A DNA stretch of 64,000 bases from assembly GCF_000708755.2 (NCBI RefSeq), contig NZ_JGVU02000001.1, positions 310,001 through 374,000 on the forward strand, in the 5' to 3' direction. A program made the translations under genes and the position numbers. Below are positions 47,738-64,000 of this stretch, in pieces. The notes under the pieces are model-generated. The model had not been told where the DNA came from. It was given only the letters and a program-made list of their open reading frames with translations, and made no database searches. This DNA comes from Metabacillus indicus LMG 22858 (GTDB taxonomy: Bacteria > Bacillota > Bacilli > Bacillales > Bacillaceae). How positions within the stretch are numbered: the first letter of the stretch is position 1; every line of letters begins with the position of its first letter.

Positions 47738-48080
47738 CTGCTTCTTTTTTCAGTTCTTCAAGTGTAAAAGATTGGCCATAGGGAGTCAATCGGCAGGATG
47801 GAAAATGGAGAAGCGGAAGTCTGATAGAATCTAAATGTATAGAATTTTCAAAAAAAGGTTGCCTGTTTTCGGAATACTGGATATACTTCTAATAACTAAT
47901 CGCATTTCACGCCTATGGAATTAGCCTTCCTGTGATCCGTGATGACGGTTAGCACCAGTGAACATATGACTAACTCTTATTGCTGTTTTGTCTATGGAAG
48001 AGATTTCTTAACGTTGACAAAAGCCGGCTGCCTTTTTGCGCAGCCGGCTTTTTTATATCTACTAAAAGGGGATGAAGCAA
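47738..48080. other. Intergenic region upstream of acyl-CoA dehydrogenase
   Basis: About 340 bp between divergent genes. No coding frame with a ribosome site. Its right end holds a strong terminator-type hairpin directly before the acyl-CoA dehydrogenase gene, which implies that an RNA is started upstream of it on the plus strand. No clear promoter could be chosen. Confidence 0.5.
48019..48054 (+). terminator. Terminator-like hairpin in the 5' region of the acyl-CoA dehydrogenase gene
   Basis: AAAAGCCGGCTGC (48019-48031) pairs with GCAGCCGGCTTTT (from 48040), followed by six or more T. It ends 27 nt before the ATG, so it may be an attenuator or the end of a small RNA. Confidence 0.75.
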
Positions 48081-49298
48081 ATGATGAATTTTAACTTGTC
48101 TGAAGAACAGAACGCTGTAAGAAAAATGGTCCGTGATTTCGTTGATAAAGAGATTAACCCGTACATTGCCGAGTGGGATGCGGAAGGTCATTTTGAACCG
48201 TCTATTTTGAAAAAACTTGCAGATCTTGGATTGATGGGAATCTGCGTGCCGGAGGAATACGGCGGCAGTGCCATGGATTATAACACTCTAGCGATTGTGT
48301 GCGAGGAGCTTGAACGCGGGGATACAGCCTACCGTACTGCCGTTTCCGTTCACACCGGCTTAAACAGCCTGACGCTGCTGCAGTGGGGAAATGAAGAACA
48401 GAAGCAGAAATACCTTACTCCGCAGGCAAAAGGGGAAAAAGTTGGAGCGTTCGGCTTAACAGAACCGAATGCAGGGTCCGACGTTGCGGCTTTGCAGACT
48501 TCAGCGGTTTTGGAAGGCGATCATTACATACTGAATGGTCAGAAGACGTGGATTTCTCTTTGCGACTATGCTGATCACTTTCTTGTATTCGCTTACACAG
48601 ATAAAAGCAAAAAGCACCACGGCATTTCGGCGTTTATCGTGGAGCGCACGATGCCTGGCTTTTCGTCCAAAGCCATTAAAGGCAAGCTTGGCATTCGCGC
48701 AGGGAACACAGGTGAAATCTTTTTTGACAACATCCGGGTGCCGAAAGAAAACCTTCTTGGCCAGGAGGGGGATGGCTTTAAAATTGCCATGTCCGCTCTT
48801 GATAATGGACGGTTTACCGTTGCAGCCGGCGCCTGCGGACTCATTCAGGCGTGTATTGAACAGAGCGTCAACTACTGCCATGAGCGGAAAACATTCGGAA
48901 AAGAGATTGGCAAACACCAGCTTGTTCAGCAGATGATCGCCAAAATGGAAGCCGGGTATCACATGTCCCGCCTCCTTGTCTTCAGAGCAGGATGCCTTAA
49001 AAACGAAGGAAAACGAAACACAAGGGAAACGTCCCTCGCCAAGTGGCAATCCTGTGATTTCGCAAACGAAGCGGCAAACGATGCGGTACAGATCCACGGT
49101 GCGTACGGTTATTCCAATGAATATCCGGTTGAACGATTCCTTAGAAACTCTAAAGCACCTGTCATTTACGAGGGAACAAGAGAAATTCATACCGTGATGC
49201 AGGCGGAGTATGTGTTAGGGTACAGAGAAGATAAAACGCTTAGCCATATGCTTCCGAGCTGGCCGTTTGAGGAAGAGAGGGAGAAGGTTAATAACTGA
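48081..49298 (+). CDS. Acyl-CoA dehydrogenase
   Basis: 405 aa from ATG 48081 (GGGG 9 nt upstream; ATG 48072 is on the site). FGLTEPNAGSDVAALQT (about 125-142) is ACAD signature 1, WISLCDYADHFLVFAYTD follows, GKEIGKHQLVQQMIAKMEAG region about 275-295, and the catalytic-base region VIYEGTREIHTVMQAEYVLG (about 360-380) holds the Glu. FAD-dependent alpha-beta oxidation of an acyl-CoA. It is a single gene, set apart from the operon at 57190. Confidence 0.9.
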   Translation: MMNFNLSEEQNAVRKMVRDFVDKEINPYIAEWDAEGHFEPSILKKLADLGLMGICVPEEYGGSAMDYNTLAIVCEELERGDTAYRTAVSVHTGLNSLTLLQWGNEEQKQKYLTPQAKGEKVGAFGLTEPNAGSDVAALQTSAVLEGDHYILNGQKTWISLCDYADHFLVFAYTDKSKKHHGISAFIVERTMPGFSSKAIKGKLGIRAGNTGEIFFDNIRVPKENLLGQEGDGFKIAMSALDNGRFTVAAGACGLIQACIEQSVNYCHERKTFGKEIGKHQLVQQMIAKMEAGYHMSRLLVFRAGCLKNEGKRNTRETSLAKWQSCDFANEAANDAVQIHGAYGYSNEYPVERFLRNSKAPVIYEGTREIHTVMQAEYVLGYREDKTLSHMLPSWPFEEEREKVNN

Positions 49299-51633: not shown

Positions 51634-51954
51634 ATGCATTCACAGACGATGTTTATTGCGGGACATGCGCGCCTGCCTGCAGGAATGGCGGCGAAGAACG
51701 TATACGATATGCTGACCATTACGGTTGAAATTGATAAAAGATATGCGGTGATTCTTGAAGCCTCCTGCACCCTTGCAACGGAGCACGGAAGAGATTTTGT
51801 CGGACGCCTTCTCCGGGGCTACAGCCTCCAGAACGGGGTGGATGAAGTCACTGAGCATGTCAGGGAACATTACTGCGGAAAAGCCATCCATGCCATCATC
51901 GCTGCGCTGTCTGATTTGCATTTTCAATATCAGCAGCTGAAGATTGAACGGTGA
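51634..51954 (+). CDS. DUF3870 protein
   Basis: 106 aa. AGHARLPAGMAAKNVYDMLT, EIDKRYAVILEASCTLATEH, DFVGRLLRGYSLQNGVDEV, REHYCGKAIHAIIAALSDLH: a compact alpha/beta protein matching DUF3870, with conserved Cys. It is encoded 4 nt before the sigma-54 activator, and such a pair suggests it senses or modifies the activator's ligand. That is inference; the function is unknown. Confidence 0.75.
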   Translation: MHSQTMFIAGHARLPAGMAAKNVYDMLTITVEIDKRYAVILEASCTLATEHGRDFVGRLLRGYSLQNGVDEVTEHVREHYCGKAIHAIIAALSDLHFQYQQLKIER

Positions 51955-51958
51955 GGAC

Positions 51959-53641
51959 ATGAAAACAGAAACGCTGATGAATATCCCTTTTCCGTGCATG
52001 ATGACTACGGACGAGCAGGTGATTGTACAGGCCAATGCCTCTTTAAAGAAGCTGAGTGGCGGTATGGAAACTGATGGACGCCATATCAATCAAGTATTTG
52101 ACGTGTGGGATGAGCTTGGCGGCGGGAAGCTGATTCAGGCTGCATGCGGCAACACCAGCTGTATTTTCATAAAAACGTCCATACAGGATTCAGCGGACTG
52201 CCTTTATATTGGCACGATTTCGACTGAGCTTGTTTCATTGATTGATGAACTGAAGGAATCAAAGCGGATTAACCGGGAACTGGATGCGATTATTGATAAT
52301 TCCTATGACGGCATTTACATAACAGATAAAGATGGGGTCACTCTCAGGACGAACCGTGCCATCGAGCGGATTACAGGCATACCAAAGGAATATTACACAG
52401 GGAAAAATGTAAACGCTCTTATTGAGCGCGGGATTCTTGAAAATTCAGTGACCCATAAAGTGATGGAAAAAAGAAGAAGCGTGTCAGTGGTGCAGCTCAA
52501 CCGGACAGGAAAAGAAACGCTGCTGACAGGAAACCCTGTCTTTAACGACAAAGGGGAAATTGAGAGCATTGTTACGAATATCAGAGATCTGTCTGAGCTG
52601 AACGATTTGCAGAATGCTCTCAGAAAAGCAACGAAACTCAATGACAGCTATAAAAGGGAAATTGAACGGCTGAAGAGTAAAAACAGCAGCATCAGTGACG
52701 TTATCATTGAGAGCGAAGAGCTTGCGGCCATTTATGAAACAGCCGACAGAATTGTCAACGTGGAAGCGACCGTCCTCATTCTTGGTGAGACAGGTGTCGG
52801 GAAGGATGTGCTTGCCCGCTACATTTACAGCAGGAGCGGGCGGTCAGATAAAGGGCGGTTTATTAAAGTGAACTGCGGGGCCATCCCGGCGGATCTTCTG
52901 GAATCCGAACTGTTTGGCTATGAAGGCGGAGCCTTTACTGGCGCAAATAAACATGGAAAGCCCGGGATGTTTGAACTTGCAGACGGAGGCGTCCTGTTTT
53001 TGGATGAGGTGGGCGAGCTTCCGCTAAATCTGCAGGTTAAGCTGCTTCGCGTGATTCAGGAGAAAGAAATTCAGCGGGTCGGTGCAACGGTTTCTAAAAA
53101 AGCAGATGTCCGGATTCTTGCTGCGACAAATAAGGACTTGAAAGAAATGGTTCAAAACGGAGAGTTCCGCGAAGATTTATTTTACCGTCTCAATGTTGTT
53201 CCAATTTTCATTCCTCCTCTCAGGAACCGGAAAAACGACATACTGCCGATTGTTACTTTCTTTTTGGAAAAAGCCAATCTGAAGTACGGCAAGAGCAAAC
53301 GGATGGATGCAGCGCTGAAAGATTTCTTTTACACCTACAGCTGGCCGGGAAATGTCCGGGAGCTTGCCAATTTGGTTGAGAGGCTTGTGCTGATCAGTGA
53401 AGAGGATGTGCTGACACATGAGAATCTGCCGGCCGAGTACAAAGGGGAAGGGCCGATTAAGCTATCTGAAATTGTCACGTTAAAAGAAGCTGCTGAACTC
53501 GCGGAAGAAAAAATCCTGACTCTTGCCGTCCAAAAATACCGGACAACCTATGAAATGGCAGAAGCTCTGGACAGCAGCCAGCCGACGATTGTCCGAAAAC
53601 TGAAGAAGTACGGACTTGCTGTCAGGCAGCCTGTCCACTAA
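51959..53641 (+). CDS. Sigma-54-dependent transcriptional activator (PAS-AAA-HTH)
   Basis: 560 aa from ATG 51959. Two PAS-like domains (about 1-95 and 105-215; the second has [20 protein letters not shown]), a short linker helix, AAA+ domain (about 255-485) with Walker A GETGVGKD (about 276), GAFTGA sigma-54-contact loop (about 324), Walker [11 protein letters not shown], and arginine finger region [11 protein letters not shown]-terminal Fis-type [23 protein letters not shown]. It binds upstream sites and opens sigma-54 promoters. The sigma-54 promoter at 57138 and its palindromes make the acyl-CoA operon the likely target. Confidence 0.9.
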
Positions 53642-54958: not shown

Positions 54959-56273
54959 CAGTCAGATCGATGATATTGCCGTACCGGAAGACGACATAAT
55001 GGCCGCCGTGTCCCGCGGAATACATGAAGGCAAAAAACAGAAAAAGAAGAAAATGTTCGCTTCTGCCGGAGTTTTGTCAGGATCTGCAGCTGCCATCATC
55101 CTTGGAACAGGGTTTTTCTTTGCGCCAGTCAATGGGGTGCTCGCGAGTGTTCCACTGATTGGATCACTCTATGAACCGTTCTCTTCCTTTAAGATAGGAA
55201 AAGAACTTGCTTCAGCAGGACTGGTCAAGGAACTGAACGAGAAGGCTGAAAGCGGCGGAATAAGTATTACGCTGACAAGTGCTTATTATGAAGGAAATGT
55301 TGTCGGAATCACGTTTAAAGCCGAAGGGGAAAACCTGCCGGAGAAATGGAAAGAAGGCCCGAATGATCCCGCTTCCGGCTACAGCCTGTCATTATTTGAC
55401 GGCAAAGAATCCAGTCAGCTGGCGGGCAGTCATTCACTCGTTGAAACAGAAAATGGATACATTGGAACGGCTGAGTATTACTTGGATGAAAAGAAGCTTC
55501 CCTCGGACTTTACTCTTCCGTTGACATTCACTTCAATTGCCGGAGAAAAAGGTGACTGGAAATTTGAAGTACCTTTAAAGCGGATTGAACCTAAGGTACT
55601 TGCCGTAAACGGAGTGTCGAAATCAGGAAGCGAATCGGTAACTATTCAAACTGTCGCAAAAGGGAAAGCGACGACAGTGATTGAATACAAAACGATTCTT
55701 TCAAACGAATATGACCAACTCTCTTTTAAGATAAAGGATGCAGGAGGCAAAGAACAGTTTCCAGTGAGCAGCGAGGTGATCCGTTCTGAGAAAAAAGCTG
55801 GAATGATCGTCACAGACTGGCGCGTGTTATATACAGATGATCTTTTAAAAAATGAAGATGTGTTAACAGTTCTTCCTGTTATTGAAAGGGATGAGTCTCC
55901 GACAATGGCTAAACTGTCACCAGCGCTTGTCGTTGAAAGCAGCCGGTTTGGCTATCAGCTGCGCGTGGAACAGTTGAAAAGAGATGGTGATCAGCTCATT
56001 GTTGATTATCATCTTTCAAATGCTTCTGGTGAGGCATTCAAAAAGGATGTACTCCAGAACTTTGCAGAAGGGGTTTCCATCAAAAACACAGAGACTTTTA
56101 TGAACGGTAAAATAAGTATAGCTGCTGATCAGAAGGAACTCCGCTTTCAGTCGGTCTATGCCATTCCCTCTGAAACCGATATGAAAGATTTAACACTGTC
56201 TGTGCCGTTTGGTGTACTTAGCATGAACCGGCCTTCTGAAAAAATGGAGCCGATTAAAATAGAGTTGGAATAG
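54939..56273 (+). CDS. DUF4179-type anti-sigma factor
   Basis: 444 aa from ATG 54939 (GGAGGAAAAG upstream, inside the sigma gene). N-terminal cytoplasmic domain of about 35 residues (PEDDIMAAVSRGIHEGKKQ), one membrane segment (about 42-64), then a large extracytoplasmic DUF4179 domain (about 70-200) and a second beta-rich domain (about 210-444: SSRFGYQLRVEQLKRDGDQL). Similar to RsiV-like/YhdL negative effectors. It likely controls the upstream sigma factor by regulated proteolysis or signal binding. Confidence 0.82.
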   Translation: MNKSWFDSQIDDIAVPEDDIMAAVSRGIHEGKKQKKKKMFASAGVLSGSAAAIILGTGFFFAPVNGVLASVPLIGSLYEPFSSFKIGKELASAGLVKELNEKAESGGISITLTSAYYEGNVVGITFKAEGENLPEKWKEGPNDPASGYSLSLFDGKESSQLAGSHSLVETENGYIGTAEYYLDEKKLPSDFTLPLTFTSIAGEKGDWKFEVPLKRIEPKVLAVNGVSKSGSESVTIQTVAKGKATTVIEYKTILSNEYDQLSFKIKDAGGKEQFPVSSEVIRSEKKAGMIVTDWRVLYTDDLLKNEDVLTVLPVIERDESPTMAKLSPALVVESSRFGYQLRVEQLKRDGDQLIVDYHLSNASGEAFKKDVLQNFAEGVSIKNTETFMNGKISIAADQKELRFQSVYAIPSETDMKDLTLSVPFGVLSMNRPSEKMEPIKIELE

Positions 56274-56300
56274 GACGGTTTGTACCTGATATAAAATGAT

Positions 56301-56329
56301 GCTCCCAACCTATAGTTGGGGGCTTTTTT
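56301..56329 (+). terminator. Terminator of the sigma/anti-sigma operon
   Basis: GCTCCCAAC/GTTGGGGGC hairpin plus T-run. Confidence 0.85.
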
Positions 56330-56433
56330 AGTGGTGAAAACAGCAATCAGCCGCAGCAAAAAAAGAGCGAAGATGCCTCTTTTCTAGAAACCTTGTGACC
56401 AGGATACCTGCTCCATTAAAAAAAGAGGTCATC

Positions 56434-56545
56434 TCAGAGTCTCTAAACGAGCTAACAGTCCGAATCCAGTGTCTAACGATCCGAATCGCACCTCTAACAA
56501 GCGCGATACCCGGTCTAACGATCCAACTAGGCTTCTAACCGTCCA
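56434..56545. repeat. Short 21-bp-period degenerate repeats
   Basis: Repeated TCTAACgATCCgAA-like words occur about every 21 bp from about 56434 to 56545 (TCTAAACGAGC, TCTAACGATCCGAA, TCTAACAAGCGCGA, TCTAACGATCCAAC, TCTAACCGTCCAAC). They lie just before array 3. No protein-coding role is evident. Confidence 0.6.
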
Positions 56546-56561
56546 ACGCCAAATCCATGCC

Positions 56562-56955
56562 GCACCGAGTTTGTGCTGCTAACTCAAGATTAGAACACTA
56601 TCGGCTGGGCCTCGCACCGAGTTTGTGCTGCTAACTCATTTATACAACACTTTCGGGCTGGCCCCGCACTGAGTTTGTGCTTCTAAATCATGTATAGAAC
56701 ACTTTCGGTGGGGCTCCGCACTGAGTTTGTGTTGCTAAATGATTTATAGAACACTTTCGGCGGGGCTCCGCACTGAGTTTGTGCTGGTAAATCATGTATA
56801 GAACACTTTCGGCCGAGCCCCGCACCGAGTTTGTGCTGCTAACTCAAGTTTAGAACACTATCGGCTGGGCTTCGCACTGAGTTTGTGCAGCTAACTCATG
56901 CATAGAGCACTTTCGGCTTGGCCCCGCACTGAGATTGTGCTGCTAATTCATAATA
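56562..56955. repeat. Tandem array 3: eight 52-bp units with inverted-repeat core
   Basis: Unit starts are 56562, 56614, 56666, 56718, 56770, 56822, 56874 and 56926, all exactly 52 bp apart. Each unit starts GCAC(C/T)GAGTTTGTGC, where GCAC/GTGC pair, and GAGTT can also pair with AACTC further on; it continues with about 20 bp around AGAACACT and a GGC-rich end. The last copy decays. It lies upstream of the sigma-54 operon, between its regulatory region and the preceding operon's terminator. Confidence 0.92.
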
Positions 56956-57017
56956 GTCTAAAGCCAGCACCAATCAGCCCTTGATGCTCCCGAAGGTTTG
57001 GCACAGCACCCTCCATC

Positions 57018-57096
57018 ATTCATTCCTGAATCCTCTGATTCAAAAATGAATCGCAAATACCCCGTAATCTCGACAAATTCAATTCAAAAATGAATC
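57018..57096 (+). promoter_or_regulatory. Three ATTCA-N4-TGAAT palindromes (candidate upstream activator sites)
   Basis: 57018-57031 (ATTCA-TTCC-TGAAT), 57038-57051 within a longer GATTCA-AAAA-TGAATC, and 57082-57095 (ATTCA-AAAA-TGAAT). Centres are 20 and 44 bp apart. They lie about 70-150 bp upstream of the expected sigma-54 transcript start, the usual position of enhancer sites. The half-site orientation is opposite to the known FadR box. Confidence 0.7.
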
Positions 57097-57137
57097 ACCT
57101 CATTCTTTAAATCCTTTAAGATTCCCGTTTTACATCT

Positions 57138-57153
57138 TGGCACACTTCTTGCA
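57138..57153 (+). promoter_or_regulatory. Sigma-54 (SigL) promoter of the acyl-CoA operon
   Basis: TGGCACA-CTTC-TTGCA, matching the -24/-12 consensus TGGCACR-N4-TTGCW at every conserved base. The expected transcript start is near 57165, 25 nt before the ATG with GGGGG as ribosome site. Confidence 0.88.
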
Positions 57154-57189
57154 TCTATATAAGCAACAACAAAAAAGGGGGATTTAAGG

Positions 57190-58338
57190 ATGCAGGCAAC
57201 CGTCACACCGGAAATTGAACAAATGAGGAAAATGGTTAGGAGTTTTGTTGATCAGGAGGTTGAACCGTACGCTCAGCAGATTGAGGATGAGGACAGGATT
57301 CCGGATCATCTTGTGGAGCAGGCGAAGGATCTGGGACTGTTTGGGATCAGCATTCCTGAGGAGTACGGCGGTATTGGGCTGAATGCGGTCGGAAAGGCGG
57401 TCGTGCTTGAACAGCTCGGTCATACCCACAATGGGTTTGTCAGTCTGATCAGCGCTCACACTGGCATCGGAAGCACAGGACTGGTGAAGCTCGCATCAGA
57501 GCACTTAAAACAAAAATATTTGCCGGAAATGGCAGCGGGGAAAAAGATTGCTGCTTTTGCATTATCTGAGCCGGGTGCGGGATCTGATGCGACGAATCTT
57601 TCAACTCGTGCAGAAAAAAGAGGCAATCAGTGGATCTTGAACGGAACGAAGCATTTCATTACGAATGCGCCAGTTGCGGATGTGTTCACTGTTTTTGCTC
57701 TGACGGACAAGGATAAGGGAGCAAAAGGCGGAATCACCGCGTTTTTAATCGAAAAGGATTTTCCGGGATTTTCTCTTGGAAAAAAAGATAAAAAAATGGG
57801 TCTTCGCGGGTCTCATACGGCACAGCTGATTTTTGAGGACTGTATCGTTCCTGAGGAAAATGTGATTGGTGAGGTCGGGATGGGATACATGTCGGCACTG
57901 AAAATTCTCAGTGAAGGCAGGGTTGGCCTTGCTGCTAGGGCTGTCGGGTCATGCGACAAACTGATAGCGCTTTCAGCATCTTACGCAAAAGAAAGGGTAC
58001 AATTCGGAAAACCGATTGCCGACAATCAGGCGATCCAATGGATGCTTGCGGATATGGCAACTGAAACAGAGGCAGCACGTACTTTGACTTACATGGCAGC
58101 ATCTATGATTGACGAAGGGAAAAAAGTAATCAAAGAAGCATCGATGGCTAAGCTTTTTGCATCCGACGTTTTTAACCGCGTTGCGGACAAAGCGGTACAG
58201 ATTCACGGCGGGATGGGCTATGTTTCCGACTATCCGGTTGAGCGCTTTTACCGTGATGCGCGAATTACTAAGATTTATGAAGGAACGAACGAAATTCAGC
58301 GTCTGATCATTGCTAGACGCGTGCTTGAAGAAAATTAG
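57190..58338 (+). CDS. Acyl-CoA dehydrogenase, first gene of the sigma-54 operon
   Basis: 382 aa. FALSEPGAGSDATNLSTRAE (about 118-137) is signature 1; KMGLRGSHTAQLIFEDCIVP (about 200-219) and GRVGLAARAVGSCDKLIALS follow; RITKIYEGTNEIQRLIIARR (about 358-377) has the catalytic Glu. It introduces the alpha-beta double bond of a short- or branched-chain acyl-CoA. GGGGG lies 8 nt before ATG. First gene downstream of the sigma-54 promoter, 18 nt before the carrier gene. Confidence 0.92.
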   Translation: MQATVTPEIEQMRKMVRSFVDQEVEPYAQQIEDEDRIPDHLVEQAKDLGLFGISIPEEYGGIGLNAVGKAVVLEQLGHTHNGFVSLISAHTGIGSTGLVKLASEHLKQKYLPEMAAGKKIAAFALSEPGAGSDATNLSTRAEKRGNQWILNGTKHFITNAPVADVFTVFALTDKDKGAKGGITAFLIEKDFPGFSLGKKDKKMGLRGSHTAQLIFEDCIVPEENVIGEVGMGYMSALKILSEGRVGLAARAVGSCDKLIALSASYAKERVQFGKPIADNQAIQWMLADMATETEAARTLTYMAASMIDEGKKVIKEASMAKLFASDVFNRVADKAVQIHGGMGYVSDYPVERFYRDARITKIYEGTNEIQRLIIARRVLEEN

Positions 58339-58356: not shown

Positions 58357-59622
58357 ATGCGCTGGACTGTGCTTGTACTGCTGTTTTTCGGAATGTTCAT
58401 TAACTTTGCTGATAAATCCATTACTGGACTTGCGGCTGTGCCGATTATGAAGGAATTTAATCTTTCCTATGCCGACTGGGGTCTTGTGGGAAGCAGCTAT
58501 TACTGGCTGTATCCGGTGACGGGTATTTTCGGGGCTGCCTGGGCAGACAGAGTCGGAGCGAAGAAGGTTCTCGGTTTTCTGATGCTTACGTGGGCTGTGC
58601 TGCAGATTGGAGTACTGGCCATTGCCGGTCTTCCGCTTCTTTTGCTTTACCGGTTTTTGCTCGGAGCCTTTGAAGGTCCGTTCAGTCCGATTGCCTATAA
58701 TCACGCCAATACGTGGTTTCCGCCGAAGCTTCGCGGCCTGGCAAATTCCGTTGTCGTTTCAGGAGCAACTCTTGGAGCCATGGTCGCCGCTCCGATTTTA
58801 GTCGCCCTGATACACATGTTCGGCTGGAGGGTTGCGTTTGCAGTTCTTGGTCTGGCAAGCATTGTGTGGTTTGTGGCGATTCAGTTTACTAGAGATGTTC
58901 CTCGTGCAGATGAGCTTGAAGAAGAGGAAAAGCCAAAAGTGAAAAAACTCGAAAAACTTGATTTGAAAGCATTTATGCTGATGCTGTCAAAACCTTCCGC
59001 CCTTTTTACGACGCTTGCTTATTTTTCAACCTATCTTCTTGTCGTCTGGTTTGCCGTCTGGCTCCCTGTTTACCTTGTGAAGGTTGTCAATATGAGCAGC
59101 ATGGAGATGGGTTATGCCGTTTCTGGCATTGGTCTCGTTTCAGTCGGCGTTTATATCGGAGTATCTGTTTTATCAGACAGAATGTTTAAGAAAAACAAAG
59201 ACTGGAAGACCTCGCGTGTTTATGTTGTCGGTTACGCCATGATTATCGGGGCAGTGCTTCTTGCTTCTACTGCTCTTGTCACAAACGCTGTCTGGGTCAT
59301 CATCGCGATGTGCCTTGCTAAAGGTCTTACATACGCCATCCTGACGATAGGACCGACGATCATGATTCAGCTTCTGCCTGACAGGGGAAATCTTATGACG
59401 AGTATTCTGACGTCTTCAGGGAATCTTGCGGGAATTGTAGGTCCGCTTATTACAGGGTATATCGTTGCTGCCGGCGGAGAAAACAGTGCAGCAGGGTTCG
59501 ACTGGTCCATCTTGTTTATGGCCGGACTGATCGTTTTGTTCGGAGTCTTATTTACTGCATTTGTCAGACCGCAGCAGAAAATCGATTTTGCGCCCGAGCA
59601 GCAGGCCGCAATTGGCAAGTAG
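58357..59622 (+). CDS. MFS carboxylate-type transporter (ACS family)
   Basis: 421 aa, about 12 membrane segments. FGAAWADRVGAKKV (about 57-70) is MFS motif A; FLLGAFEGPFSPIAYNHANT and PPKLRGLANSVVVSGATLGA (about 98-140) match anion:cation symporter (ExuT/hexuronate-like) members that carry organic acids with protons. Placed in the operon between the dehydrogenase and acyl-CoA ligase, it likely imports the carboxylic acid that the ligase activates. Confidence 0.85.
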   Translation: MRWTVLVLLFFGMFINFADKSITGLAAVPIMKEFNLSYADWGLVGSSYYWLYPVTGIFGAAWADRVGAKKVLGFLMLTWAVLQIGVLAIAGLPLLLLYRFLLGAFEGPFSPIAYNHANTWFPPKLRGLANSVVVSGATLGAMVAAPILVALIHMFGWRVAFAVLGLASIVWFVAIQFTRDVPRADELEEEEKPKVKKLEKLDLKAFMLMLSKPSALFTTLAYFSTYLLVVWFAVWLPVYLVKVVNMSSMEMGYAVSGIGLVSVGVYIGVSVLSDRMFKKNKDWKTSRVYVVGYAMIIGAVLLASTALVTNAVWVIIAMCLAKGLTYAILTIGPTIMIQLLPDRGNLMTSILTSSGNLAGIVGPLITGYIVAAGGENSAAGFDWSILFMAGLIVLFGVLFTAFVRPQQKIDFAPEQQAAIGK

Positions 59623-59634
59623 GGGGTATACATT

Positions 59635-61254
59635 GTGAAAAAAGGAATAGAACGGCCCTGGCACTCTTTTTACCAGCACAGGGATGTCCATCTGCCTGAG
59701 CAATCTCTCTACATGATGCTGCAGGATACAGCAGAGAGATACGGAAATCAGACGGCCATTTTGTTTGAAGGAGAAGAGACGTCATATTTGGAGCTTAAAG
59801 ACCGTGTTGAAAGGCTGGCAGGAGCCTGGAGGGAACTGGGCCTTGTAAAAGGGAACCGTATTGGCCTGATGCTAGCCAATCACCCTGATTATGTTGTTTC
59901 GTACTATGCCGCACATGCACTTGGTCTTGTTGTGGTTCAGATTAATCCGATGTATACGGCCCGGGAGCTTCTTCAGATTGTGATGGACGCGGAAGTGACC
60001 GCTATCGTCGCAGATAAAGCGGGAAGAGAAACCATCAGGAAAATCAGTGATATCTTCACTTTCTCTTATACATTTGGTTCTCAGCCGGACGGGCAGGACG
60101 ATTCATTTTCCAGTCTTGATCACTTGATTGAATCCGGGAAGCCTCTCCATCAGCCGGAAGAAATTGATGCAGCGGAAGATGTGGCGGTGATTCAGTACAC
60201 AGGCGGGACAACCGGAAAAATGAAAGGCGCCATGCTCACTCACTACAACCTGACCGCAAATGTCTATCAAAGCTACCTGATGTATGGCGACTCTATGATT
60301 CAAGGAGAGGAAACCGTACTCATTGCAACGCCTCTCTACCATGTTTACGCGATGACAAGCGGGATGAATCTTGGCATTTTCATAGGCGGAAGGCTTCTGC
60401 TTTTCCGAAAATTTGAGATTGATGATGTTCTGGAAAAAATCAAAGTGTACAGACCGACTTTTTTTCCCGGTGTTCCAAAGATGTACATTGCGTTTGTCAA
60501 TCATCCCCAAATTGAGGAAGCGAAGCTCCATTGCTTAAAGTTGTGTTCCTCAGGGTCTGCACCGCTTCCGGTGGAAATCATTCAGCGCTTTGAAAAGCTG
60601 ACAGGTACAAGAATCGGAGAAGGGTTCGGTCTTTCCGAAGCTTCACCTTCCACCCACCGCAATCCGCCTTTTGGAAAACGGAAAATAGGGAGCATCGGCA
60701 TTCCTGTTCCCCTGACAGACTGCATGATTGTAGATGAAGACAACAGGGAGCTCGGTCCAAAAAGCGTGGGGGAACTGCTGATTAAGGGACCCCAGATTAT
60801 GAAGGGCTACTGGAAAAATGAAAGCGAAACGCATGCAGCACTTCAAAACGGCTGGCTGTATACGGGAGATCTCGCGACGATGGATGAAGAAGGCTATTTT
60901 TACATCGTCGGGCGGAAAAAGGAAATGATCATTCTTGGCGGATTCAATGTTTATCCTCAGGAAATTGAGGGTGTCCTTTATGAGCATCCGGATGTAAAAG
61001 AAGCTGCTGTAGTAGGGCTGCCTGATGAAGAACACGGGGAGAGAGTCAAAGCTTACGTTGTTCCTAAAGATGGAAGACTAATAGATGCAGAGGAATTAAA
61101 AGGATACTGCTATACAAAGCTGACGCCTTATAAAGTGCCGAAGCAGTTTGAAGTCAGGGAGAGCCTCCCGAGAAACACAGTGGGAAAACTGCTGAAGCGG
61201 CTGCTTATTAAAGAAGAGAGTTTGAAAGGGGAGAATGGAAATGAAGATTCATGA
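59635..61254 (+). CDS. Acyl-CoA ligase (AMP-forming)
   Basis: 539 aa, GTG start behind GGGGGTATAC. AMP-binding motif YTGGTTGKMKGAMLTH (about 188-203), GEGFGLSEASPSTH (about 328), GWLYTGDLATMDEEGYFYIV (about 405-424) with the ribose-binding Asp, RKKEMIILGGFNVYPQEIEG hinge (about 426-445), and the C-terminal catalytic Lys in RNTVGKLLKRLL. It activates a carboxylic acid to acyl-AMP and then the CoA thioester. Chain length unknown. It overlaps the next gene by 14 nt. Confidence 0.93.
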   Translation: MKKGIERPWHSFYQHRDVHLPEQSLYMMLQDTAERYGNQTAILFEGEETSYLELKDRVERLAGAWRELGLVKGNRIGLMLANHPDYVVSYYAAHALGLVVVQINPMYTARELLQIVMDAEVTAIVADKAGRETIRKISDIFTFSYTFGSQPDGQDDSFSSLDHLIESGKPLHQPEEIDAAEDVAVIQYTGGTTGKMKGAMLTHYNLTANVYQSYLMYGDSMIQGEETVLIATPLYHVYAMTSGMNLGIFIGGRLLLFRKFEIDDVLEKIKVYRPTFFPGVPKMYIAFVNHPQIEEAKLHCLKLCSSGSAPLPVEIIQRFEKLTGTRIGEGFGLSEASPSTHRNPPFGKRKIGSIGIPVPLTDCMIVDEDNRELGPKSVGELLIKGPQIMKGYWKNESETHAALQNGWLYTGDLATMDEEGYFYIVGRKKEMIILGGFNVYPQEIEGVLYEHPDVKEAAVVGLPDEEHGERVKAYVVPKDGRLIDAEELKGYCYTKLTPYKVPKQFEVRESLPRNTVGKLLKRLLIKEESLKGENGNEDS

Positions 61255-62113
61255 GATTGCTGTTATTGGTTCAGGAACAATGGGGTCGCAGATTGCCATG
61301 GTGTGTGCACTTTCAGGCTATCCTGTAACGCTTCAGGATGTGAGCGGAGAAAGTCTGGCAAAAGCAAAGGATTTTCTTCATCAGCAGATGGATAAGCGGG
61401 TGAAAAAGGGGAGGTATACAGCTGAAGAAACGGATGCTGCATTCAGCAGAATTTTATTTACCTCAAACCTGGCGGATGTAAGAGATGCCGACCTTGTCAT
61501 TGAGGCCATTGTTGAAAAGCTGGATGTAAAAAGAGAACTGTTCAGGCAGCTGGATAAAATCACGCAGCCGCATGCTATTTTGGCTACAAACAGCTCAACG
61601 ATCGTAAGCTCGAAACTTGCTGATGCGACCAGCCACCCTGACAAAGTCTGCAACATTCACTTTTTTAACCCAGCCCTTGTCATGGAGCTTGTAGAAGTCG
61701 TAAAAGGGCCGCACACGTCAGAAGAAACAGCTCATACAGCCATGGAATTTGTTAAAACGATTAAAAAGACTCCTGTTTTGCTGAAAAAAGAGATTTCTGG
61801 TTTTATAGCCAACCGCATATTAGGCAAGCTCATGGATGAAGCTGTCTTTCTGCTTGAAAACGGTTATGCCTCTCACGAAGAAATTGATCTTGTGTGCACA
61901 AAAGCGCTGAATCATCCGATTGGTCCTTTTGCCCTGATGGACCTGACCGGTATTGACGTCAATTACTTTGTCCGCATGCAGCGCTATGAAGAGAGCGGGG
62001 ACGAACGCGACATGCCTGCAAAGATAGTCCGTGAAAAAGTACAGAACGGAGAACTCGGCCGGAAGACCGGAAAAGGCTTCTATACGTATGAAAAGGCCGC
62101 TGTGGAGGGATAG
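61241..62113 (+). CDS. 3-Hydroxyacyl-CoA dehydrogenase (first of two)
   Basis: 290 aa from ATG 61241 (AAAGGGGAG 7 nt upstream; ATG 61235 is on the site). NAD loop VIGSGTMGSQIAMVCALSGY (about 7-26), catalytic-region NPALVMELVEVVKGPHTSEE and KALNHPIGPFALMDLTGIDV (HCDH C-terminal signature). Oxidises (3S)-hydroxyacyl-CoA to 3-oxoacyl-CoA; HBD-type length. Overlaps the ligase gene, and its stop is 1 nt before the next start. Confidence 0.9.
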   Translation: MKIHEIAVIGSGTMGSQIAMVCALSGYPVTLQDVSGESLAKAKDFLHQQMDKRVKKGRYTAEETDAAFSRILFTSNLADVRDADLVIEAIVEKLDVKRELFRQLDKITQPHAILATNSSTIVSSKLADATSHPDKVCNIHFFNPALVMELVEVVKGPHTSEETAHTAMEFVKTIKKTPVLLKKEISGFIANRILGKLMDEAVFLLENGYASHEEIDLVCTKALNHPIGPFALMDLTGIDVNYFVRMQRYEESGDERDMPAKIVREKVQNGELGRKTGKGFYTYEKAAVEG

Positions 62114-62114
62114 G

Positions 62115-62933
62115 GTGAAAAAAATCAGTGTGATCGGTGCAGGTACAATGGGGCGGGGAATTGCTTATGCATGTGCTGCTGCAGGCTATGAAGTGACCAT
62201 ACAGGACATATCAGAACAATCTTTGGAAACAGCGCGCTCTTATATCAGCAAGCAAGCCGCAAAAGCCGGATTAAGCATAGAGAACGCAAACCTTGAATTT
62301 ACAACTGACCTGAAATCAGCTGCTGCGGACGCCGACTTAATCATAGAAGCCGTTCTTGAAGTAATGGATCTTAAAATCAGCGTGTTTAAAGAGCTTGACC
62401 GATATGCAAAGCCTTCAGCCATTCTTGCGACGAATACATCAACCATGAGCCCGACTGAAATTGCCGCGCAGACAGGCAGACCGAAGCAGTGTATTGCCCT
62501 GCACTTTTTCAACCCTGTCCCTAAAATGAAGCTGATTGAAATCATATGCGGTCTCGAAACATCAGATGAAACGGTTGAAAGCTGCTTTCATTTCGGCGAA
62601 AAGCTTGGAAAAGAATGCGTGAGAATCAATGAATACCCGGGTTTTGCGGTCAGCCGGATGAATTGCCTGATCGGCAATGAGGCGATGACGATGCTTATGG
62701 AGGGTGTCGGATCTGCAGAAGACATCGATAAAGCCATGAAGCTCGGATTAAATCACCCTATGGGGCCTCTGGAATTAGCCGATTTGGTGGGACTTGATAC
62801 AAGGCTTCGCAACATGGAATATCTGCACCGGACACTCGGTGAAAAATTCCGACCTTGTCCGATTCTTGTGAAATACGTGAAAGCCGGATGGCTCGGAAAG
62901 AAAAGCGGACGCGGTTTTTATACTTACAGCTAG
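62115..62933 (+). CDS. 3-Hydroxyacyl-CoA dehydrogenase (second of two)
   Basis: 272 aa from GTG 62115 (GGAGGG upstream, inside the end of the first dehydrogenase). NAD loop VIGAGTMGRGIAYACAAAGY, HFFNPVPKMKLIEIICGLET (about 131-150) with the catalytic His, and KLGLNHPMGPLELADLVGLD C-terminal signature. A paralog rather than a duplicate: identity to the previous gene is visible only in the motifs. Two dehydrogenases suggest two substrates or a two-stage pathway. Confidence 0.9.
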   Translation: MKKISVIGAGTMGRGIAYACAAAGYEVTIQDISEQSLETARSYISKQAAKAGLSIENANLEFTTDLKSAAADADLIIEAVLEVMDLKISVFKELDRYAKPSAILATNTSTMSPTEIAAQTGRPKQCIALHFFNPVPKMKLIEIICGLETSDETVESCFHFGEKLGKECVRINEYPGFAVSRMNCLIGNEAMTMLMEGVGSAEDIDKAMKLGLNHPMGPLELADLVGLDTRLRNMEYLHRTLGEKFRPCPILVKYVKAGWLGKKSGRGFYTYS

Positions 62934-62945
62934 GAGGCCATGCAT

Positions 62946-64000
62946 ATGAATTTTCAATTGGATGAGGATATTCTTCTGTTAAAGCGGGGTGTCCGCGACT
63001 TTGTTCAAACAGAGGTTGAAGCGGCTGCAATGGAAATTGAAGAATCGAATGCAATCCCTGAACGGATCATTGCCATGTCAAAAGAGCTTGGATTATTTGG
63101 TTTAAGTATTCCTGAAGAATACGGGGGCCTTGGCATCGGAATGGTTGGAAAGTGTGCTCTGTACGAAGAGATTGGCGCCACACATAACGGGTACACCACG
63201 CTGATTGGCGCCCATACAGGAATCGGCACCGTTGGAATTGTGGAAATGGGGAATGAAGAGCAAAAACAAAGATATCTCCCTAAAATGGCAGCCGGAGAGC
63301 AGATCGGAGCGTTTGCCCTGACTGAGCCGAGCGCCGGATCCAATGCGACAAACCTGAAAACAACAGCTGTAAAAAGAGGTGATAAATACATCCTGAACGG
63401 GACGAAGCATTACATTACAAACGCGACGGAAGCAGGTGTTTTTACGGTAATGGCTGTGACGGATCCCGCCAAAGGTCCGAAGGGAATCACCTCCTTTATT
63501 GTGGAAAAAGATTTTCCCGGCTTCCAAGTAGGAGCTGTTGAAAAGAAAATGGGCCTTCGCGGGTCTCATTCGGCTGAAATCATCATGGAGGATTGTGAGG
63601 TTCCAGCAGAAAACGTTCTCGGTGAGGAAGGGCAGGGGTATGTGAATGCCCTGAAGATTCTGGCCAACGGAAGAGCGGGGCTTGCTGCAAGGAATCTTGG
63701 TTCATGTCAAAAACTGCTCGATCTTTCCATGCTTTATGCAAAGGACAGAGTGCAATTTGATGTTCCAATCTTTGAGCATCAGGCAGTTTCCCACATGATT
63801 GCGGAGATGGCCATGGAAATTGAAGCATTGCGTTCTTTTACCTACAGGGTCGCCTGGATGGTTGATGAAGGCATGAAAGTCATAAAAGAAGCAGCCATGC
63901 TGAAGCTGTTCGGGTCAGAGGTGTACAACAGAATTGCAGACAAAGCGGTTCAAGTGCACGGCGGGATCGGGTACATTGCGGATTATCCGATTGAACGTTT
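62946..64000 (+). CDS. Acyl-CoA dehydrogenase, second of the operon, partial
   Basis: At least 351 aa; the frame is open to the window end. ATG 62946 follows TAGGAGG (ATG 62940 is 2-3 nt from it). MNFQLDEDILLLKRGVRDFV..., FALTEPSAGSNATNLKTTAV (about 119-138; the Asp of AGSDA is Asn), FKMGL-type KKMGLRGSHSAEIIMEDCEV, and ADKAVQVHGGIGYIADYPIE at the edge. It closely resembles the dehydrogenase at 57190. The catalytic Glu region lies outside the window. Confidence 0.92.
   Translation, partial: MNFQLDEDILLLKRGVRDFVQTEVEAAAMEIEESNAIPERIIAMSKELGLFGLSIPEEYGGLGIGMVGKCALYEEIGATHNGYTTLIGAHTGIGTVGIVEMGNEEQKQRYLPKMAAGEQIGAFALTEPSAGSNATNLKTTAVKRGDKYILNGTKHYITNATEAGVFTVMAVTDPAKGPKGITSFIVEKDFPGFQVGAVEKKMGLRGSHSAEIIMEDCEVPAENVLGEEGQGYVNALKILANGRAGLAARNLGSCQKLLDLSMLYAKDRVQFDVPIFEHQAVSHMIAEMAMEIEALRSFTYRVAWMVDEGMKVIKEAAMLKLFGSEVYNRIADKAVQVHGGIGYIADYPIER

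Follow-up and report, generated by a model that had tools for sequence, protein, structure and literature searches.

Fatty-acid degradation in Bacillus is taught as a case of FadR repression. A locus at the end of the 64-kb window (the whole stretch of DNA analysed here) raises the question of whether genes for acyl-CoA catabolism can also be switched on by sigma-54, since the original prediction placed a -24/-12 promoter and three palindromic sites before an acyl-CoA operon and assigned an activator gene to them. Our comparative analysis indicates that the locus is very probably a sigma-54 catabolic switch, in which the activator works from a "two plus one" set of dyads on a SigL-dependent promoter and turns on the uptake and beta-oxidation of an external carboxylate.

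The pattern TGGCACN5TTGCW has a single exact match in the window, TGGCACACTTCTTGCA at 57138-57153 on the forward strand, and the predicted perfect promoter is indeed present. It has 0 mismatches, and the spacing of its GG (-24) and GC (-12) elements is correct for a sigma-54 promoter. Transcription would start at about 57163, and the first operon gene begins at 57190. A consensus scan of 56200-57200 found no sigma-70-like promoter. A terminator-like hairpin (56301-56323) lies upstream of the promoter region, 3' of an anti-sigma gene. Between that gene and the dyads there is a tandem array of a 52-bp unit (56560-56951, 7.5 copies), which has 14 more matches in the genome at 66%-81% identity, some of them within the same array.

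The three predicted ATTCA-N4-TGAAT dyads are all exact: a distal one, D1 (ATTCATTCCTGAAT, 57018-57031), a middle one, D2 (ATTCAAAAATGAAT, 57038-57051, 20 bp from D1), and a proximal one, D3 (ATTCAAAAATGAAT, 57082-57095, 44 bp from D2), with centres at about -139, -119, and -75 relative to the proposed start site. No other exact copy occurs in the window. Dinucleotide shuffles of the window gave a mean of 0.28 exact dyads and reached three in 1 of 100 shuffles, and when the 158-bp region alone was modelled at first order, three were reached in 0 of 200,000 draws; these results, together with the composition-matched palindrome controls described below, led us to reject a chance origin. Genome-wide, 14 exact dyads were found, 11 of which lie outside the locus and are not part of a dyad-promoter composite. 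An exact dyad besides the three of the promoter region (L149:2174, genome C1:377173) is located in the gap between the last operon gene and a separate operon; the 4-kb stretch of L149 contained no sigma-54 promoter at one mismatch or fewer.

The genes downstream of the promoter share one orientation and are separated by short gaps, so they would form a single transcript. Within the window, all on the forward strand, these are the acyl-CoA dehydrogenase gene acdA (57190-58338; Pfam Acyl-CoA_dh, with each of the 23 NCBIfam models listed scoring under its cut-off), an MFS transporter (58357-59622; the best models, for D-galactonate and phosphoglycerate transporters, are below cut-off), an AMP-forming acyl-CoA ligase (59635-61254; long-chain ligase models top the best 25 of 106 matches, below cut-off), two 3-hydroxyacyl-CoA dehydrogenases (61235-62113 and 62115-62933, identified by Pfam and NCBIfam searches), and a second acyl-CoA dehydrogenase, acdB, identified by profile searches and cut by the window end (62940-64000). 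Genes for a thiolase, a thioesterase-like protein, an enoyl-CoA hydratase, and a thioesterase follow past the window, to approximately window-equivalent position 66908. The operon therefore comprises at least 10 genes instead of the predicted six and runs beyond the window end.

The beta-oxidation set is complete: ligase, acyl-CoA dehydrogenase, hydratase, 3-hydroxyacyl-CoA dehydrogenase, and thiolase. Its assignment is based on Pfam for the five window genes and on NCBIfam for the thiolase, which is over a cut-off, and for the hydratase, which is below the cut-offs among the matches listed. The thioesterase-like gene had no NCBIfam match. In the NCBIfam listings, which give the best 25 matches each for the ligase, the thiolase, the hydratase, and the second 3-hydroxyacyl-CoA dehydrogenase, two products alone exceed a cut-off: the thiolase does so with a general thiolase model and the last thioesterase with a fold-domain model. 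The names therefore do not reveal the substrate. The MFS transporter of the window is replaced by a DctM-type TRAP system with an NMT1_3 binding protein in two loci of other lineages (L039, L054) and by LIV-type ABC components in five more (L044, L045, L051, L055, L194), while the ligase and acyl-CoA dehydrogenase genes are retained. Because importer types swap while these enzymes remain, the substrate would be an imported small or medium carboxylate, not bulk lipid; instead of an ordinary fatty acid, it may be a carboxylate of short or medium length, or a modified one.

Elsewhere the genome contains a YsiA-like locus encoding an AMP-binding ligase, a TetR regulator (PF08359, E 5.3e-62), an enoyl-CoA hydratase, and both ETF subunits. 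We take this regulator to belong to the FadR family of B. subtilis. The FadR box is TGAATGA..TCATTCA, and a perfect TGAATGA-N4-TCATTCA lies between the ligase and regulator genes (L152:6116-6133). No FadR box was found in the window promoter region, where the best match at a 4-bp gap has 5 of 14 mismatches, and the arm order of the dyads (ATTCA..TGAAT) is opposite. The proposed contrast with FadR control thus held. With a separate YsiA-like locus that carries the box and a window promoter that lacks it, two control systems for acyl-CoA genes seem to coexist in this genome.

The alternative that survives best is that the operon is an ordinary additional SigL regulon, run by a standard activator and serving ordinary fatty-acid oxidation with no specific acid signal. 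Statistical enrichment of sigma-54 promoters at acyl-CoA families in Bacilli and Clostridia, as given in excerpts of PMC12316311, is in line with it, while a specific substrate from outside the cell is favoured by the dedicated importers and by the coexistence of a YsiA-like locus that has both ETF genes along with a ligase and a hydratase of its own. This argument is not decisive, and we consider such an ordinary regulon rather unlikely but still a serious competitor of the substrate-specific switch.

The genome encodes the sigma-54 factor SigL (PF04552, E 2.6e-60, one match). The candidate activator gene (51959-53641, forward strand, alternative TTG start at 51944) encodes an AAA+ sigma-54 interaction domain (PF00158, E 4.2e-68), with GAFTGA seen in the alignment, and one detected PAS domain (residues 107-210); the first approximately 95 residues match no listed family. 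The C-terminal helix-turn-helix is Pfam HTH_50, presumably TyrR-like, and a Fis-family model was absent among the models listed. Of the PAS-AAA-Fis activator 3.5 kb upstream that had been predicted, the PAS domain, the AAA+ domain, and the distance stand, while the Fis assignment and the plurality of PAS domains do not. The other six strong activator genes of the genome fall outside the class with the recognition helix SQ[PA][ST], and their 9-kb loci contain no exact dyad.

The 3' end of the activator gene is 3.5 kb from the promoter, that is, distant here, not adjacent. The interval holds a membrane-protein gene and an ECF sigma/anti-sigma pair, and the gene block at this place differs among relatives. 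The ECF pair was considered as a part of the circuit; it is missing from the interval in two relatives (L035, L036). Directly upstream of the activator gene is a DUF3870 gene (PF12986, 51634-51954, forward strand, Pfam E 7.9e-28), which adjoins the activator in 7/7 genomes of the genus and was considered as its obligate partner. DUF3870 is present in 43 of 150 genomes, and beyond the genus it occurs near an activator of the window's clade, among the matches listed, only in G122 (L042), with two genes between. An acyl-CoA dehydrogenase gene at 48072-49298 also stays near the activator, at 94%-99% identity in the genus and 85%-86% in L039 and L045-L047. Its best models, acryloyl-CoA reductase and glutaryl-CoA dehydrogenase, are both below cut-off, and neither an exact dyad nor a sigma-54 promoter was found near it in the window.

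Joint conservation of promoter, dyads, and activator among relatives had been proposed as a check, and the locus passed it in 7/7 genomes of the genus and in further genera. Activator orthologues are 75%-96% identical in 6/6 other sampled genomes of the genus and 51%-66% identical in other genera. The promoter is identical in all seven genus genomes, and in each of them exact dyads begin 120, 100, and 56 bp before it; the sequence between the sites changes while the promoter and the dyad spacing stay fixed. Outside the genus, the activator gene is often directly upstream of the dyads and promoter. Three exact dyads are present in L039 and L043, and exact and near dyads precede perfect promoters in Neobacillus sp. 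Marseille-Q6967 (L054, activator identity 66%) and Peribacillus simplex (L055, 62%). In the usual layout, with dyads of up to two mismatches, a pair 18-21 bp apart is followed by a third site 43-63 bp on and then by the promoter; at one promoter of L047 the third site is 32 bp on. The start of the proximal dyad is mostly 54-57, 65-68, or 74-85 bp from the promoter, with outliers at 134 bp (L039) and 195 bp (L048, an imperfect dyad) and hand-measured distances of 45 bp (L195) and 146 bp (L188). Other or incomplete dyad sets were seen in L040, L041, L051, and L063. In Peribacillus simplex, a second dyad and sigma-54 promoter (L055:2662-2732) precede a ligase-acyl-CoA dehydrogenase set upstream of the activator, and its regulon may have at least two promoters.

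The association of dyads, promoters, and activators extends to genome-wide searches. The composite of a dyad, 32-62 bp, and a -24/-12 promoter matched 18 sites in 16 of 150 genomes, covering nine of the 62 sampled genera, as compared with one site for the backward-read control. Among the matches listed, 17 of the 18 composites (8/9 genera) are located 48-7145 bp from an activator gene; the composite of G080 is a miss, with no activator gene in 20 kb. When the search was repeated on 11 genomes reached through the loci, matches were found in nine and the control gave 0. A Peribacillus genome (G853) has four composite sites, two of them outside this locus.

The dyads are associated with the recognition helix of the activator HTH_50. 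Activators with the helix SQ[PA][ST] have dyads nearby in 26 of 30 loci, versus 4 of 81 for the others, and in 21 of 25 without L140-L144, which were fetched after dyads had been seen beside two of these five. Four SQ[PA][ST] loci were without dyads: the contig of L049 is short, the dyad sets of L073 and L074 lie 5.5 kb upstream, and L065 has none. L140-L144 contain a paralogous activator (43%-44% identity) with dyads just before its gene (two each in L140, L142, L143, and L144, and one in L141) and a sigma-54 promoter just behind it, so that the enhancer-promoter distance is about 1.4 kb; in L140 this promoter leads to a class-III aminotransferase and a sodium:solute symporter.

In 12 clade loci, each representing one close group and retrieved solely through activator similarity, there were 20 ATTCA dyads in 11 loci, versus eight sites for 29 composition-matched palindromes combined. 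A sigma-54 promoter lies within 300 bp downstream of 20/20 dyads and of 0/8 control palindromes. Within the order, which the named hits suggest to be Bacillales, 16 of 397 genomes and 12 of 135 genera carry an exact dyad pair (control, 0), at 19 sites in total. The 10 newly fetched loci all hold an activator, nine as long frames and L189 as a C-terminal fragment, and acyl-CoA operons were present in 4/10 of them and absent in 6/10. In a sample of the phylum, 2 of 398 genomes had the pair; both belong to the genus of the window, and the strict pair is therefore not phylum-wide.

In a 62-row activator tree, built by a quick method with no bootstrap after 16 truncated or near-duplicate rows had been left out, the window belongs to a 21-row clade with an SH-aLRT of 100. 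Within a counting range that opens 3 kb before the activator and closes 9 kb after it, dyads are present in 20 of its 21 rows, or in 16 of 17 without L188, L191, L194, and L197, which were fetched by the dyad pair; L050 is the member without dyads. Acyl-CoA genes nearby, defined as matches to at least three of seven query enzymes, two of which may match one gene, are likewise present in 20/21 rows; L034 falls short here, since its operon extends past the 9-kb limit. The other 41 rows have dyads in 15 cases and acyl-CoA matches in two. Ten of these 15 rows were fetched because of their dyads, and the remainder gives 5/31. About 11 rows entered the tree because of dyads (L188 and L190-L197 were found with the pair, L198 and L199 with the composite, and L140-L142 after dyads had been seen beside two of the five paralogues), and dyad counts over such rows are not independent evidence. 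L073 and L074 were counted as lacking dyads because their sets, 5.5 kb upstream, fall outside the counting range.

Followed beyond this clade, the dyads point to a clade of 11 rows and to the pair L063/L193. Genes neighbouring these activators include those for class-III aminotransferases, a sodium:solute symporter, an amino-acid permease, a Gate-domain protein, and an arginase-family enzyme; the dyad-bearing distant activators beside aminotransferase, permease, or arginase-family genes are 42%-46% identical to that of the window. The site therefore occurs more widely than at acyl-CoA genes, and on this sequence evidence the window clade is the acyl-CoA branch of the dyad-associated activators. 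We tentatively suggest, as a possibility that we hold at less than even, that the ATTCA-N4-TGAAT pair 18-21 bp apart, often with a third site, is an enhancer code common to several diverged activator lineages of the order, serving acyl-CoA as well as aminotransferase, arginase-family, and permease genes, and that regulons may be cross-activated in genomes with two activators. If so, one DNA code would tie carboxylate catabolism to that of amines and amino acids, and the sensor domain or the geometry, not the site, would set specificity.

Taken together, comparative conservation and co-occurrence in and beyond the genus support the predicted sigma-54 control of the acyl-CoA operon. By analogy with well-studied activators of the same type, GabR and SoxR among them, the PAS/N-terminal region would sense the substrate acid or its CoA ester, and the helix-turn-helix would bind the three dyads, with two dimers occupying D1 and D2, which are spaced by two helical turns, and a third dimer sitting on D3. 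On these 2+1 sites the dimers would jointly nucleate the AAA+ hexamer. DNA looping would bring the hexamer into contact with SigL-RNA polymerase at 57138-57153, and ATP hydrolysis would open the promoter. The induced operon would import the carboxylate by the MFS transporter, activate it by the AMP ligase, and oxidise it by the full beta-oxidation set.

Since dyads also stand beside distant activators, the dyad alone is no proof that the neighbouring activator acts here, and a different sigma-54 activator, or several including the neighbouring one, could work through it. Other lineages of activators also occur with this dyad, and five relatives in the genus (G001, G002, G003, G005, and G006) carry one paralogue with its own dyads. 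However, this paralogue scores 374-390 bits in those five genomes, whereas the window genome and G004 have no second activator above approximately 283 bits among the matches listed and nevertheless keep the triple dyad. Moreover, outside the genus the activator is often the gene directly upstream of the dyads. We therefore regard the involvement of another activator as improbable and retain the neighbouring activator as the one that probably acts at this promoter.

Least probable, and in our view hardly credible, is that the dyads are operators of a FadR/TetR-type repressor, the operon belongs to the ordinary FadR regulon, and the -24/-12 match is incidental: the FadR box is also built from ATTCA/TGAAT arms, the genome has the YsiA-like TetR gene, and a near match (TGAATCACCTCATTCT at 57091) has only 2 of 14 mismatches, but its gap is 2 bp and it is lost in L034-L038, the box at the YsiA-like locus has 0 mismatches versus 5 of 14 for the best window match at the same 4-bp gap (the ground on which we rejected this reading), the dyads track the activator recognition helix and sigma-54 promoters, and the consensus scan of 56200-57200 found no sigma-70-like promoter.

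The proposed activator-dependent switch resembles the B. subtilis FadR regulon in controlling acyl-CoA degradation genes; FadR, however, is a TetR-type repressor acting at sigma-A promoters through an operator of inverse arm order. The locus predicts positive, ATP-driven control of acyl-CoA catabolism that runs in parallel with the FadR-type locus which this genome also contains.

Among sigma-54 systems, GabR/gabT of Bacillus thuringiensis is similar, according to excerpts of PMC4279683, in having a PAS-AAA-HTH activator, a SigL-dependent target, and a repeat-containing upstream binding region, deletion of which lowers expression; its inducers are GABA and succinic semialdehyde. It differs in its target, GABA catabolism; its site is a 21-bp inverted repeat. 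A search for the GabR target promoter in 16 genomes of the family gave five one-mismatch matches, none before an aminotransferase-sized frame. CrbR, as described in part of PMC6615313, is likewise a predicted sigma-54 activator with multiple upstream sites and acyl-CoA genes as targets; it serves butyrate synthesis in anaerobes, in contrast to import and oxidation here. PrdR (NF041552) is the top NCBIfam model for the activator, at 393.3 bits far under its cut-off of 795, and its targets, as listed in a table of PMC6615313, are proline-related, unlike the window operon. PMC4941409 concerns SoxR sites, and PMC3162934 and PMC4324140 provide general background.

A search by title and abstract, with subscription journals mostly outside its scope, returned no paper on the activator or the dyads among the matches listed. 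The main text of PMC4428206 has 0 occurrences of "acyl-CoA" and "fatty acid" and so names no operon of this kind in B. thuringiensis. A PLoS One 2025 study of genome-wide sigma-54 predictions (PMC12316311, in excerpt) places acyl-CoA dehydrogenase, 3-hydroxyacyl-CoA dehydrogenase, thiolase, and acyl-CoA synthetase families among the targets in Bacilli and/or Clostridia. These are family-level statistics, and the excerpts name no activator, enhancer site, or geometry for acyl-CoA genes. Sigma-54 catabolic regulons are thus a known kind, while the regulator, the site, and the geometry look new; as far as the literature searched extends, so do the DNA code, the proposed link to acyl-CoA catabolism, and the conservation of the geometry. 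With these named, and with a search pattern (dyad, 32-62 bp, -24/-12) that recovers the circuit, the family-level statistic of the literature is turned into a testable regulon.
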